From positions 62,001 through 126,000 of the forward strand of contig JAQSYP010000005.1 of NCBI GenBank assembly GCA_029256085.1: a stretch of 64,000 bases of DNA, written 5' to 3'. The notes beneath the pieces are model-generated. The model saw only the letters and a program-made list of their open reading frames with translations. It did not search any database and was not told the origin of the DNA. Both the position numbers and the translations under genes were made by a program. This document shows positions 6,630 through 59,770 of this stretch, in pieces; the first letter of the stretch is position 1; each line of letters starts with the position of its first letter. Origin of the DNA: Caryophanales bacterium. Its GTDB lineage: Bacteria; Bacillota; Bacilli; CAJFEE01.

Positions 6630-7694
6630 ATGTTAGTGAAATCTCAGTTAATGAATTTAAAGCCATATACTCCTGCAAAGCCTGTAGAACGTGATGGTAG
6701 TGAAAAAATAGAATTAGTTCGTTTAAATTCAAATGAAAATCGCCATGGCTGCTCACCTAAAGTAATTGAAGCCGTACAACAACTAAATCAAGATTTTTCA
6801 TATTATCCTGATGGATTGGCTACAGAACTGACAAATAGATTGGCTGAGTATCTAAAAGTAAGCACTTCGCAAATTATTTTAGGTGCTGGTGGTGATGAAG
6901 TTATTCAAATTATTAGTAGGTCTGTACTAACACCAGGGGACAACATTGTACAAGCTGATTTAACTTTTTCACAATATAGCTTGCATGCTGTAATTGAAGG
7001 AGCTGAAATACGTAATGTTCCATTAGTTGAGGGTACACATGACTTAGTAGGCATGGCTGCAGCAGCAGATGATAGAACTAAAATTATATGGATATGTAAC
7101 CCAAACAACCCTACAGGTACATATATTAATGCTAGTGAGTTAAATAGCTTCATGGAGAAAGTCTCTCCTAATACTTTAGTAGTTGTAGATGAAGCATATT
7201 TCGAATATGTTTCTGCGAGTGATTTTCCTAATACAATCGAACTAATAGAAACTTATCAAAACTTATTAGTTCTAAGAACATTCTCTAAAATCTATGGGCT
7301 TGCAAGTTTCCGAATTGGCTACGGTATTGCAAATGAAGAACTAATTAGTAGACTTAATATAGTTAGATTGCCCTACAACACAGCTAGATTCTCTCAAGTA
7401 GCTGCTTGTGCTGCCCTTGAAGATATGGAGTTTGTAAAGTTTTCATATGAGCAAAACAAGTTAGGGCTAACACAACTTGAGGAGTTCTTCGATAAAGAAA
7501 ATATTAAATATTATAAGTCGCAAGCGAATTTTATATATATTGTTGTTAAAAATAGTGAAGAGATTGCTAAACTTCTTGAAAACAAAGGTTTTATTGTTAG
7601 AAAGTTTCTAGAAGGTATTAGAATAACAGTTGGAACGCAGCAGGATAATCAACTATTAATTCAAAGTATGGAAAATATTTTTGTGAACCAATAA
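6630..7694 (+). CDS. hisC: Histidinol-phosphate aminotransferase
   Basis: A fold-type I PLP aminotransferase with the N-terminal signature 'LKPYTPAKPVER', the region RLNSNEN, and the Schiff-base lysine in SKIYGLASFRIGYG. It converts imidazole acetol phosphate and glutamate to histidinol phosphate. The frame is open from a GTG at 6621, but GGAAGAGGTG places the start best at ATG 6630 (354 residues). It sits directly behind the patatin-like gene and just before the promoter and leader of hisZ, so it may be transcribed apart from the main his operon. Similar enzymes can also accept aromatic amino acids. Confidence 0.93.
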   Translation: MLVKSQLMNLKPYTPAKPVERDGSEKIELVRLNSNENRHGCSPKVIEAVQQLNQDFSYYPDGLATELTNRLAEYLKVSTSQIILGAGGDEVIQIISRSVLTPGDNIVQADLTFSQYSLHAVIEGAEIRNVPLVEGTHDLVGMAAAADDRTKIIWICNPNNPTGTYINASELNSFMEKVSPNTLVVVDEAYFEYVSASDFPNTIELIETYQNLLVLRTFSKIYGLASFRIGYGIANEELISRLNIVRLPYNTARFSQVAACAALEDMEFVKFSYEQNKLGLTQLEEFFDKENIKYYKSQANFIYIVVKNSEEIAKLLENKGFIVRKFLEGIRITVGTQQDNQLLIQSMENIFVNQ

Positions 7695-7696
7695 GC

Positions 7697-7725
7697 TTGA
7701 CAAATTGACTAAATTTTTCTAAAAT
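7697..7725 (+). promoter_or_regulatory. Sigma-A promoter of the his operon leader
   Basis: TTGACA (7697-7702), a 17-bp spacer, and TAAAAT (7720-7725) begin 2 bp after the hisC stop. The predicted transcript starts near 7732 and includes the leader peptide and attenuator-like structures. Confidence 0.8.
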
Positions 7726-7753
7726 TAAAAATTATTACTAAGGGGAAATTATA

Positions 7754-7807
7754 ATGCCTAATACACAAGTTAAGTTTTACATCCATCATCATATGACCAG
7801 GGTTTGA
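7754..7807 (+). CDS. Putative histidine leader peptide (17 aa, three consecutive His)
   Basis: A 17-codon ORF with ribosome site AAGGGGAA 7 bp upstream encodes MPNTQVKFYIHHHMTRV and stops with TGA at 7805. The three tandem CAT codons at 7784-7792 lie about 25 codons before a strong terminator that precedes hisZ. This is the arrangement expected of a ribosome-sensing leader peptide like enterobacterial hisL. It is too short for homology to decide. The support is position, codon content and the ribosome site. Confidence 0.75.
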   Translation: MPNTQVKFYIHHHMTRV

Positions 7808-54924: not shown

Positions 54925-54949
54925 TACACCCTTATGGGTGTATTTTTTT
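54925..54949 (+). terminator. Intrinsic terminator of the secreted-protein gene
   Basis: TACACCC-TTAT-GGGTGTA followed by T7. Confidence 0.88.
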
Positions 54950-55037
54950 ATGCCAAAAGTCATAACTATCAAAATATTTGTATAGGTTGTTTAGTATAAT
55001 TAAAATAAATAAAAAATTAAATTAAAGGATGGTAGGT

Positions 55038-56006
55038 ATGGAACTATGGGTAAAATATCTTGATTTAGTACCAGAAAATTATCTAAAAGGCTTTATTAAG
55101 TTGATAAACTGTAAGATACCAGGGTTTAGGCCCGACGATAGCGCAAAGATTCCTCGAAGAATTCTAAAACAAATATTAATTAAAAAAAATCATATTCTAA
55201 AGCTTAAAGAAGAGGCAGAACGTTTAGCTAAAAGAGAAAATATAGCCAATATAGATGAAAAAGAACTCCAAAATCTCACATGCGACTCTCCAGAGAAAAC
55301 ATTTACATACTCCTTTGTCCTAATAAATAGCGAGAAAGAACCACATAGAAGAAAAGCACTTCAATTAATCGAGTCTACTTTACAAGAAGATAAAAAAGAA
55401 CGTAAAACAAATAACACACAACTTGAAAATAATGAAACTAAATCATTGAAACTAGAGTTAGATAAAAAAGAAAAAATTTATAGAGATCTTCAAAGTAAAA
55501 GTTCAAAGGAAATTAGCGAACTTAAAAAAGAAAATAAAAAACTCAGAAAAGAGCTTATAAATATAAAGAATAGTTTATTAAATGAAAAACAAGAAAACAA
55601 AAAAATAGCAGCTGAATTAGATGATTTATTTAATAGTTATAATGATGTATCTCAAAAATTACAACAGCTAACTTTATTAAGTAATGAAAAACAACTCAAA
55701 ATTAATGACCTGAATGCTAAACTGCTAAATAATCCGATAAACAAAAATATAAAAAATAATCTTCTAATTGGGATGCCCCCATACGACTTGAAACTAGCGA
55801 ACTGCAATGATTTTGAGTTTTTGAAAGATGAACATATATGTAATTTTTTAGAAGTAAATAACCTTGAACAGTACGACAACATTTACATAATTAAATCTGA
55901 GTTACAAAACAAAAATTTCATTCAACTACGAAGGGCATTATTAAATATTAACTATAGTGTTTTTGAAAATGCCAATGAACTAAGTTTATTTATAAAGGGG
56001 AATTAA
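55038..56006 (+). CDS. Coiled-coil protein, first gene of a McrBC-like system
   Basis: 322 residues from ATG 55038 (AAGGA 8 bp upstream; an ATG at 55029 is also open). Three parts: a helical N-terminal domain (1-110) with 'GFRPDDSAKIPRRILKQIL'; a long Lys/Glu/Asn-rich coiled coil (about 115-235); and a small alpha/beta C-terminal domain (about 240-320, 'LLIGMPPYDLKL', 'YDNIYIIKSELQ'). I recognise no known family. Two bases separate it from the AAA+ gene, so it is part of that operon and may be a sensor or assembly subunit, inferred only from position. Confidence 0.8.
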   Translation: MELWVKYLDLVPENYLKGFIKLINCKIPGFRPDDSAKIPRRILKQILIKKNHILKLKEEAERLAKRENIANIDEKELQNLTCDSPEKTFTYSFVLINSEKEPHRRKALQLIESTLQEDKKERKTNNTQLENNETKSLKLELDKKEKIYRDLQSKSSKEISELKKENKKLRKELINIKNSLLNEKQENKKIAAELDDLFNSYNDVSQKLQQLTLLSNEKQLKINDLNAKLLNNPINKNIKNNLLIGMPPYDLKLANCNDFEFLKDEHICNFLEVNNLEQYDNIYIIKSELQNKNFIQLRRALLNINYSVFENANELSLFIKGN

Positions 56007-56008
56007 CA

Positions 56009-58045
56009 ATGAATGAAAAGAGCTTAGGTATATATATGTTAGGTGTACTTTCAAACGTTGAAGAGATTGAGGAAGCGTTTGGAAGAACTAAAAGTGCATT
56101 TATAAATAGTCAGAATAGCATACAGTTTTTAATTAAATCCATATCTCAACCACCAGAGAATCTCTCCAGTGAAATATTTTATACTTGTTTCTCATCCGAA
56201 TTAGAACAATGTGGATTCATAGATGATTTAAGGGAACTAGACCATAGACGCGAAAAGAACTTTATCGATTATATGAATAATTATGTCATTGCATTTGTCC
56301 CTTATAAAAAAATGCGAGGTAATGAACCCGTATATCTTGCAAAGGAAATAAAACTAATAAAGAAAAATGATTCTTATTTAGAAAATTCAAGATATATTCC
56401 CGTTCCAGTCTTTAGTTACGAAAAGCATAAAATAACTATTAATGAATTTAAGTATAAACTTATGAACCGGAAGTACGTCGGTCAAATATCTTACTATTCA
56501 AGAGAAAATGAAGACACACCGCCTTATGTGTTGTGGGCAGATGATGAACTAAATTATACAGCTTTTGGGCATTTTAGTAGTCATACGTATGCACATGGTG
56601 GTTTTAATTTTAGTGGCGTTGATGATTTAAAAGAATGTAATACAGCTTGCCATCTATACGACGATTCATATTTTATTAACGATAATATTATTTTTATAAA
56701 AACAGAAATATTTAATGATATAAATAGCTTGCTAGATTCTGGATTGGCTAGTCCGGTCCCTAAAATAGACTTAACTAATAAAGAGTTTATACAACGCACA
56801 CATGAATATTCTCAATTAAAACCAAATTACGCCCAATTTGAGATTAATACGAGTCCAACTTCTACGCTTGTATTAGATAAACAAATTGATAACACGTGTT
56901 TGGATAGTATTAGGAATCCTTCAGAAATTGAATTTCTTAATCGATTTATTCAAGTTGCAAGAGACAATGGTTTGAACTATTCAGAAAAGGATCTTGTTAA
57001 TTTTCATATATCGATGAAAGTATCAAATTTAGTCATTTTACAAGGTATGAGCGGAACAGGGAAATCAAGAATTGTACAAACCTACGCAAAGGCACTAGGA
57101 ATTTCAAAGAATAGCGAAAAGTTGGTAGTTATTCCTGTAAGGCCCTCTTGGACTGATGATTCTGACTTGTTAGGGTATGTAGACACGATTAATTCAATCT
57201 ATAGAGCAGGAGACTCAAAGCTAGCAGATGCTTTAGTTTCAGCTAGTAAAGAGGAAAATCGTGACAAACTTTATATTATTTTATTCGATGAAATGAATTT
57301 GGCTAGAATAGAGCACTATTTTTCACAATTTTTATCCGTACTTGAAATGGAAAATAGAAATCTCCAATTATATAACAATAGCCTAGAAGGCAGGTTGTAC
57401 AACTCGGTAGTTTATCCACCAAACATTAGTATCCATGAGAACGTAATGTTTGTAGGAACAGTTAACATTGATGAATCTACATTTCACTTCTCAGATAAAG
57501 TACTAGATAGATCTAATGTTATTAGTTTAGATGTACTTCCATTTAACCAGTTAAAGAAACTACTCGATGAATCAGGAAAAAGAAAATCAGAAGAAATACG
57601 AACTTCTGAGACGAAAAAATATACTTTAGAAGATTTCACTAACTTTAGAAATCAAGAGTGGAAAATACAACTTTCAGAAAGAGAATTAGATTTTCTCTGG
57701 TCGTTACATGGTCTAATGAATAGAGTTAATAGAAATTTAGGGATTGGACCGAGAATTATAAGACAAATAGACTTGTATATGAAAAACGTACCCGAGAATC
57801 TCTACTTAAATAGAGGGGAAGCGTTTGATTTGCAAATCGTTCAGAGGGTCATTACTAAAGTTCGAGGATCCGAGGAGATGCTTAAAAGCTTAGTAGGTTA
57901 TTATAACTGTGAACATAATATGGTAATTGAAAGTGATTTCAGAGATCTTATTGAAAAATTTAAAGATATATCAGATTTTAAGGAAACGATAATGATCTTA
58001 AATCAAAAAGCGAAAGAGCTGAAGTACAATGGTTATGCTTTCTAA
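56009..58045 (+). CDS. McrB-like AAA+ NTPase
   Basis: 678 residues. The N-terminal 300 are unassigned (possible ligand-recognition module). The AAA+ core has Walker A GMSGTGKS (346-353), Walker B ILFDEMN (D427, E428) and 'GTVNIDESTFHFSDKVLDRSN', the McrB-type segment (classical MNTADRS) that marks this GTPase/ATPase branch. A C-terminal helical part follows. AAGGGGAA precedes the ATG. The last 17 bp overlap the nuclease gene. In McrBC systems this subunit translocates nucleic acid and activates the nuclease partner. Confidence 0.88.
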   Translation: MNEKSLGIYMLGVLSNVEEIEEAFGRTKSAFINSQNSIQFLIKSISQPPENLSSEIFYTCFSSELEQCGFIDDLRELDHRREKNFIDYMNNYVIAFVPYKKMRGNEPVYLAKEIKLIKKNDSYLENSRYIPVPVFSYEKHKITINEFKYKLMNRKYVGQISYYSRENEDTPPYVLWADDELNYTAFGHFSSHTYAHGGFNFSGVDDLKECNTACHLYDDSYFINDNIIFIKTEIFNDINSLLDSGLASPVPKIDLTNKEFIQRTHEYSQLKPNYAQFEINTSPTSTLVLDKQIDNTCLDSIRNPSEIEFLNRFIQVARDNGLNYSEKDLVNFHISMKVSNLVILQGMSGTGKSRIVQTYAKALGISKNSEKLVVIPVRPSWTDDSDLLGYVDTINSIYRAGDSKLADALVSASKEENRDKLYIILFDEMNLARIEHYFSQFLSVLEMENRNLQLYNNSLEGRLYNSVVYPPNISIHENVMFVGTVNIDESTFHFSDKVLDRSNVISLDVLPFNQLKKLLDESGKRKSEEIRTSETKKYTLEDFTNFRNQEWKIQLSERELDFLWSLHGLMNRVNRNLGIGPRIIRQIDLYMKNVPENLYLNRGEAFDLQIVQRVITKVRGSEEMLKSLVGYYNCEHNMVIESDFRDLIEKFKDISDFKETIMILNQKAKELKYNGYAF

Positions 58046-59738
58046 AAAAAATACTCCATTTTCTGTTATTTATAAAATAGAAAATAGGGAACTAAAAATA
58101 AACAGTATATATGATAATCTTAGCGAATTTTATGATAACCTTGATTTGGCTATTAATATAGATGAGGATTCAAATGTTCAACTTAATTTTTCATGTAATA
58201 TTGAAGATGCAAAATTATTTATGGACGGTCTTGATTCTGTTAGCATTTCTAGTATTAAAGAAGATGATAAAGGGCCATATATAAATCCTACTAATAGGTT
58301 TATAGATATATTTCATTATAATAGTTTCCCCTTGATTCCAGGTACATACGTAATTTGTGTAATTATTAACAACAGAAAATATTATTCTGGTTTCAAGGTG
58401 AAAGCACGGCATATTTCAGAAAACCAACTTGTGATTATGAAATCAGAAACCGAACTACTTATTACAGAACTTGCAAATGAGGTAATCAATAATAACTACG
58501 ATTTACTTGACGAGAGTAGTAATATTCCAATTGAACTTAACTATTTTGGGTTTATAATAAAAACTTATTCAGATAGTTTAATAGGTTCAATAAATGATAT
58601 AATCCTTAAGTTTAATCATAAGCTTAAGAAGAATTATAATTTTATAAATAGTGATAAAATAGGCCTTCACGATGAAAGATCTATTAACATGTATAATCGG
58701 AAACCAATAATATCAAATAAGATTATCGCTCCAGTTTATGAAATTGATTATGATTTACCTGAAAACAGAATGCTAAAACGAATGGTAAAGTGTATATGCA
58801 GTAGATTCCGAGAAATTAAAGATTTATATGAGAAGACAATCGAAGGACTACAAGAGGATAAGTTCAAATCTTTACAAAACGAATTAAGTATTTTACACGG
58901 CGAGAGTTTAAAAATTATAAATGCCTGTGAGAAATTCTTAAATAATACTAACGTTAAGCTAATATCTACTGTTAATGCTAATAAATTTAATCACGTAACT
59001 TTTCATGATCCAAGATATAGTATTATATATAATATCTTCAAGCGCGTTGAAGGCGAATTTAAAGTTAGTATTGATAGTAAGTTACTCTTAAATTTCAAAA
59101 GAACTGCAAAGCTATATGAAATTTGGGGATTTACAAAGATCATCCACATTTTGAAAAAAGAGCTTAATTTTTTACCAGTCAAAGGTTGGGTATTTAATAA
59201 TCTTAATAATTCAAATGTTATTGTAAGTAATTTGAATTCTAATACAGTTGTTGAAATGGTAAAAGAAGACTTAACAATCAAGCTTCATTTCGATAAACAG
59301 ATTCCATATAGTAGTACAAAAACTGATTTAGATAATTCACCATTATATACAATTGATGTAAATAACCGCCCAGATGTTAGGTTGGATTTTTATAGAAATA
59401 ATTCTTTTTTAGGAAGCATTGTTATGGATTTTAAGTTTAGAAAAATAAGCAGTATTTGGGATAACTCCAAAACTGAGGTGAAGGATAGACCAACAACTAT
59501 GCTACAGCTCACTAGATATTATACAGGACTAATGAGCAAATATTTACTAGATAACACTAATAAGATGTTAAGACCTGTGTATGAGGTGTGGGCATTTTTT
59601 CCTAATAATAATTTTAGTAATACAAAAGAAGAGTATATCGAAGATTACAGGTTAAGGTTACTTTGTTTAAGACCAGGTGAAGATAATCAACATATTTCAG
59701 AAAATATTAGAAATGCAATCGGATATTTAAGCAAATAA
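58029..59738 (+). CDS. McrC-like DUF2357 and PD-(D/E)XK nuclease
   Basis: 569 residues. The middle ('YEIDYDLPENRMLKRMVKCI') fits DUF2357, a partner domain found with McrB-like ATPases. The C-terminal domain has a PD-(D/E)XK layout: P448-D449, D453 and D467-F-K469 in 'PDVRLDF' and 'IVMDFKFR', followed by 'TMLQLTRYYTGL'. The active-site residues look intact. It starts inside the AAA+ gene by a 17-bp overlap and ends the operon at a strong terminator. It is expected to cut nucleic acid when activated by the AAA+ ring. Confidence 0.88.
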   Translation: MVMLSKKNTPFSVIYKIENRELKINSIYDNLSEFYDNLDLAINIDEDSNVQLNFSCNIEDAKLFMDGLDSVSISSIKEDDKGPYINPTNRFIDIFHYNSFPLIPGTYVICVIINNRKYYSGFKVKARHISENQLVIMKSETELLITELANEVINNNYDLLDESSNIPIELNYFGFIIKTYSDSLIGSINDIILKFNHKLKKNYNFINSDKIGLHDERSINMYNRKPIISNKIIAPVYEIDYDLPENRMLKRMVKCICSRFREIKDLYEKTIEGLQEDKFKSLQNELSILHGESLKIINACEKFLNNTNVKLISTVNANKFNHVTFHDPRYSIIYNIFKRVEGEFKVSIDSKLLLNFKRTAKLYEIWGFTKIIHILKKELNFLPVKGWVFNNLNNSNVIVSNLNSNTVVEMVKEDLTIKLHFDKQIPYSSTKTDLDNSPLYTIDVNNRPDVRLDFYRNNSFLGSIVMDFKFRKISSIWDNSKTEVKDRPTTMLQLTRYYTGLMSKYLLDNTNKMLRPVYEVWAFFPNNNFSNTKEEYIEDYRLRLLCLRPGEDNQHISENIRNAIGYLSK

Positions 59739-59740
59739 AA

Positions 59741-59770
59741 AGAGGCTGGGAAAGTTTATCCCAGCCTCTT
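59741..59770. terminator. Bidirectional terminator between the McrBC-like operon and pdxK
   Basis: AGAGGCTGGGA and TCCCAGCCTCTT arms with a 7-nt loop and A/T runs on both sides. Confidence 0.92.

Follow-up and report, generated by a model that had tools for sequence, protein, structure and literature searches.

A very probable Type I-B CoCoNuT operon (cnuABC) in a Caryophanales bacterium

Genes and protein features of the operon

The window, the whole 64,000-nt stretch of Caryophanales contig JAQSYP010000005.1 that was analysed, contains three co-directional genes on the plus strand, placed by the ORF listing at 55038-56006, 56009-58045 and 58029-59738. The first (cnuA) encodes a coiled-coil protein, the second (cnuB) an McrB-like AAA+ GTPase of 678 aa with an N-terminal part of about 300 residues, and the third (cnuC) an McrC-like protein of 569 aa combining DUF2357 with a PD-(D/E)xK nuclease. 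The gap between cnuA and cnuB is 2 nt, and cnuB and cnuC overlap by 17 nt (58029-58045, plus strand). A terminator-like hairpin lies upstream (54925-54942, plus strand) and a bidirectional one, assigned to neither strand, downstream (59740-59770), in agreement with the first-pass annotation, which had described three nearly contiguous genes between terminators. Two starts are candidates for cnuA, namely 55029 (325 aa) and 55038 (322 aa). The latter, also the start originally chosen, is the better one because AAAGGA at 55024-55029 has a suitable spacing from it and because relatives start at the equivalent of MELWVKYL; CnuA residues are numbered here from 55029. Around the operon the window holds ordinary genes (DUF2680, ThiD, RtcB, and hemerythrin), and no other defence gene adjoins it there. 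An empty site was not definable in the single family relative compared, where thiD lies in another neighbourhood. The RtcB-type RNA ligase gene (PF01139, 60782-61966) is located one gene downstream of the operon, which is perhaps a coincidence but would matter should the system turn out to cut RNA.

CnuB matched AAA_5 in Pfam (E = 1.9e-8), and among solved structures those closest to it in sequence are McrB chains of E. coli. Its Walker A motif, GMSGTGKS, covers residues 346-353 including K352 (57044-57067, plus strand), and its signature segment, GTVNIDEST...KVLDR, reads N-x-D, not N-x-x-D (N486-I-D488, 57464-57472, plus strand), with N486 and D488 invariant in 31 CnuB homologues. No coiled-coil family was among the families shown for these 31 proteins, and their N-terminal parts matched no CSD, EVE/YTH or McrB specificity domain in Pfam; six whole genomes likewise gave zero matches to the EVE domain. 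The AlphaFold2 model of the CnuB N-terminus, built on a two-sequence alignment, is so poor (pLDDT 35) that the lack of a long helix in it has to be read accordingly. In the published description, too, fold comparison was needed to recognise CSD/YTH in CoCoNuT CnuB (PMC11090510).

CnuC matched PDDEXK_7 above the curated Pfam cut-off (E = 5.3e-7) and DUF2357 just below it (E = 7.1e-5, 22.6 bits against 23.3), while its N-terminal residues 74-122 gave a weak match to Wzt_C (E = 0.11). The catalytic residues D449, D467 and K469 (at 59373, 59427 and 59433, plus strand) are conserved: across 21 CnuC homologues P448, D449 and K469 never vary, and D467 is retained in at least 90%. The initial view of the locus as an McrBC-type (type IV-like) module, with an AAA+ protein carrying an McrB-type segment and a DUF2357 protein with an intact D449/D467/K469 site, was thus borne out by an NxD AAA+ GTPase and its DUF2357/PD-(D/E)xK partner, the DUF2357 match being borderline.

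In CnuA, the AlphaFold2 model gave, in order, a helical N-terminus, a long helix and a C-terminal alpha/beta domain. The first 100 residues or so are predicted to be helical and are conserved (pLDDT mostly <50). Residues 104-233 (55338-55727, plus strand) form a single helix, mostly at pLDDT 83-93, and the heptad score (0.58) exceeded the maximum of 500 shuffles (0.52), so this coiled coil of about 130 residues is more than chance. Apart from generic coiled-coil matches, no named family was found for CnuA; both its richness in coiled coil and its want of a recognised domain had been noted at first pass. Its matches to SMC-like proteins, JetC, LmuB and eukaryotic proteins were discarded, as they reflect a generic coiled-coil likeness.

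The C-terminal domain of CnuA (residues 244-322; 55758-55994, plus strand) was modelled as four beta-alpha units (pLDDT about 54-79) and appears receiver-like. Its top match among solved structures was the receiver domain of VpsT, at a Z of 6.1 that falls short of the level where a fold match means more than a common arrangement, and profile comparison with 14 receivers of the same genome gave zero matches. In true receivers the phosphorylated residue is an Asp located where strand 3 ends, and the pseudo-receivers of VpsT and KaiA sense a ligand or protein. By inspection of the alignment, an Asp occurred within three residues past the strand-3 core in 2 of 20 CnuA proteins of the near clade (see below), and these three residues read K-S-E in the window. 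Phosphorylation control, which has been suggested for Type I-B CnuA (PMC11090510), is therefore doubtful in the near clade. A pseudo-receiver is a fair, if unproven, alternative to a phosphorylation-controlled receiver; the full proposal, namely that a phosphorylation-incompetent domain senses a ligand or protein and gates CnuB-CnuC with no histidine-kinase switching, we consider unlikely as it stands.

Recurrence and genomic surroundings of the trio

A strong GTPase match was obtained in 50 of the 399 genomes of the window's class, its own genome included, and close relatives were patchy (19 of 399 at E 2.8e-82 or better). We then surveyed neighbourhoods in 30 genome stretches, 8 plasmid records and one IMG/VR contig. 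Of 33 homologous loci, 31 have a complete coiled-coil gene upstream, one has it interrupted and one lacks it. The gene was complete just upstream in 21 of 23 loci of the near clade (window included) and likewise in 10 of 10 loci of a more distant trio clade, while none of six other two-gene loci had it. The GTPase tree keeps these groups apart with as few changes as possible, the placement of long branches being unsure. The trio had been flagged for a check of its conservation, and the coiled-coil gene, hence not missing from most loci, is supported as belonging to the module. Of the two near-clade exceptions, L058 has cnuA split into two overlapping ORFs (7040-7790) ahead of intact cnuB and cnuC, by frameshift, decay or sequencing error, and L059 is the single near-clade locus without cnuA. 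Upstream in L059 (4384-6957) is a protein of 857 aa which, judged by eye, is similar to restriction proteins of the DUF262/HNH (GmrSD-like) kind.

Sequence searches were less informative than gene order. A tblastn search of plasmids with CnuA returned zero matches, though CnuA-like genes adjoin the matched cnuB there, so a failure to find CnuA by sequence says little, and the order of genes has to be consulted. Scans of contigs with single-protein patterns of CnuA and CnuB also gave no matches, because such patterns reach close relatives only; the CnuA and CnuC alignments were too variable to serve as patterns for viral-contig scans. The trio was carried by genomes and plasmids of Bacillota and by one viral contig. 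All full-length plasmid relatives with an intact trio came from Bacillota, and further relatives were found in the window's own class. The viral carrier (L072:4943-9706; IMGVR_UViG_2910903598_000004) is a contig of 120 kb that is classed as viral; it has the full trio and keeps the 17-nt overlap. A related operon remnant, disrupted by IS3, IS982 and IS30, was seen on the Enterococcus faecium plasmid pE1077-217 (L011).

The junction of cnuB and cnuC was nearly constant. The ATG of cnuC lies exactly 17 nt ahead of the cnuB end in 31 of 32 loci (11 nt in L061), in most cases within codons for N-G or Y-G close to the C-terminus of CnuB. Since the overlap is fixed despite just 19-30% identity between the CnuC homologues and the window CnuC, it points to translational coupling of cnuB and cnuC under selection, with conserved CnuB residues also helping to preserve the ATG.

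Defence genes were frequent around the relatives, an association that the first-pass annotation had singled out for checking. In a scan, 117 proteins neighbouring the trio matched 200 PADLOC models at 1e-15, led by type I restriction subunits, against 17 models for 117 control proteins of the same genomes; these figures count models, not independent systems, as many models hit one and the same restriction gene, and the choice of control stretches was arbitrary. The trio adjoins a type I restriction system on a Companilactobacillus plasmid and an ABC-three-component system on a Priestia plasmid. In Lactococcus an ISS1 copy lies on either side of the trio, and an abortive-infection gene follows about 3 kb downstream.

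Elsewhere in the genome of the window, an ABC transporter ATPase gene is followed downstream by a second CnuBC-like pair of two genes (L066:8168-11474; G000:C16), with an equivalent in one family relative, again downstream of such a gene (L067:5972-9323; G001:C5). Both GTPases are degenerate, N-x-D being absent from the two and Walker A lost in L067, and the PD...ExK motif of the nuclease is retained in both. No close match to this pair was found among 397 other genomes of the class.

These surroundings bear on whether the operon serves defence at all. It could be a domesticated or stress-response system, like Pseudo-Type I-B of Bacillus, and its position among ordinary genes in the window and the degenerate second pair beside an ABC transporter gene are what such a system might look like. 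However, Pseudo-Type I-B is without CnuA, which the window has, and the close relatives are patchily distributed, sit on plasmids and a viral contig, and lie beside restriction systems. We regard domestication as quite improbable; very probably, the three genes make up a bacterial system against viruses.

Proposed mechanism and target

The model of a GTP-dependent ring and nuclease stimulation is based on the biology of E. coli McrBC. Gene content, motifs, conservation of the trio, the fixed cnuB-cnuC overlap and the defence-rich surroundings of relatives were observed directly; ring assembly, anti-phage function, the target and the role of CnuA are inferred. CnuB would form a GTP-hydrolysing AAA+ ring, and its N-terminal 300 residues or so might bind foreign or altered nucleic acid. 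CnuC may dock on this ring via its DUF2357 region, stimulate hydrolysis through the NxD motif and cut with its intact PD-(D/E)xK site. CnuA would be a coiled-coil scaffold or sensor that organises or gates the CnuB-CnuC complex. In short, the trio should work as a GTP-dependent CnuB ring, with CnuC stimulating and cutting and CnuA scaffolding or sensing.

A rival reading is that the operon acts as an ordinary McrBC, a DNA-targeting type IV enzyme that cuts modified or otherwise foreign DNA, with CnuA as an assembly factor only and RNA uninvolved. In E. coli, the PD-(D/E)xK fold of McrC cuts DNA. The sole recognised nuclease of the window trio is an intact PD-(D/E)xK site, which makes DNA cleavage at least as plausible as RNA cleavage, and no HEPN or other RNase gene adjoins the trio in the window. 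On the other hand, the motif is NxD and not NxxD, the CnuB N-terminal part matches no McrB specificity domain in Pfam, and CoCoNuTs are predicted to act on RNA through accessory domains (PMC11090510). Weighing these points, we give ordinary McrBC action somewhat less than an even chance.

For the Type I-B reading favoured below, several features offer testable constraints, namely the conserved 17-nt overlap, the conserved CnuA and the missing phosphoacceptor. The relatives on Lactococcus and Lactobacillaceae plasmids would be handy for phage assays in safe laboratory strains. Newly observed here are the CnuA C-terminal domain without phosphoacceptor Asp, the trio on an IMG/VR contig, and the second, degenerate CnuBC-like pair.

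Comparison with known systems

CoCoNuTs were defined inside the NxD branch of McrB GTPases (Bell et al. 2024, eLife; PMC11090510). Their Type I-B, predicted from genomes and found mainly in Bacillota, has a separate CnuA (a PYD/CARD-like helical domain, a coiled coil and REC), a CnuB without fused coiled coil but with a shortened NxD GTPase motif, and CnuC; the CnuB N-terminus carries a CSD, often with a YTH-like domain too, and the CnuC N-terminus an Ig-like beta-sandwich (PMC11090510). Searches of the open literature turned up no experimental study of a Type I-B system.

The first-pass annotation had called the module undescribed and had set CoCoNuTs apart from it. Neither statement survives comparison with this paper, in which the same layout is published as Type I-B and a separate coiled-coil gene, an NxD GTPase and an McrC nuclease in Bacillota define that type (PMC11090510). 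CnuA has diverged too far for any database family to name it, which might argue for a three-gene type IV module of a new kind; nevertheless, in its order of genes, its domain layout, its NxD motif, its separate coiled-coil gene and its taxonomic range the operon agrees with Type I-B (PMC11090510), whose description already largely refutes such novelty, which we find scarcely credible.

Other relatives fit less closely. Canonical McrBC of E. coli K-12 shares an AAA+ GTPase and a nuclease partner from the same superfamilies, but it has NxxD where the window has NxD, and the window differs further by its extra coiled-coil gene, an unrelated CnuB N-terminal part and a longer CnuC N-terminus. Among PADLOC phage-defence candidates, PDC-M26 resembles the operon in that PDC-M26A matched CnuB (141 bits) and PDC-M26B matched CnuC (33 bits), whereas none of its models matched the window CnuA. 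Pseudo-Type I-B CoCoNuTs possess a related GTPase and nuclease pair in Bacilli but no separate CnuA (PMC11090510). Type III-B CoCoNuTs have a separate CnuA as well, plus genes for the CnuH helicase and CnuE effector (PMC11090510); no CnuH or CnuE gene adjoins the trio in the window.

We conclude that the operon (cnuABC) is most probably a Type I-B CoCoNuT, which is one branch of the McrBC family of type IV restriction systems. This assignment, made by comparison with the published description, is filed as very probable rather than certain, because the decisively testable features agree and the fold-dependent ones (PYD/CARD, REC, CSD/YTH and Ig) gave no confident match. The operon would thus be a complete, compact and intact member of this predicted kind, with all catalytic residues present. 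Its CnuA C-terminal domain departs from Type I-B in that it is without the phosphoacceptor of true receivers. With that type it shares a separate coiled-coil gene directly upstream of a cnuB without fused coiled coil, the NxD signature GTVNIDES that defines the CoCoNuT branch, the CnuA order of helical N-terminus, coiled coil and C-terminal alpha/beta domain, a CnuC with DUF2357 (borderline) and PD-(D/E)xK, and a range within Bacillota.
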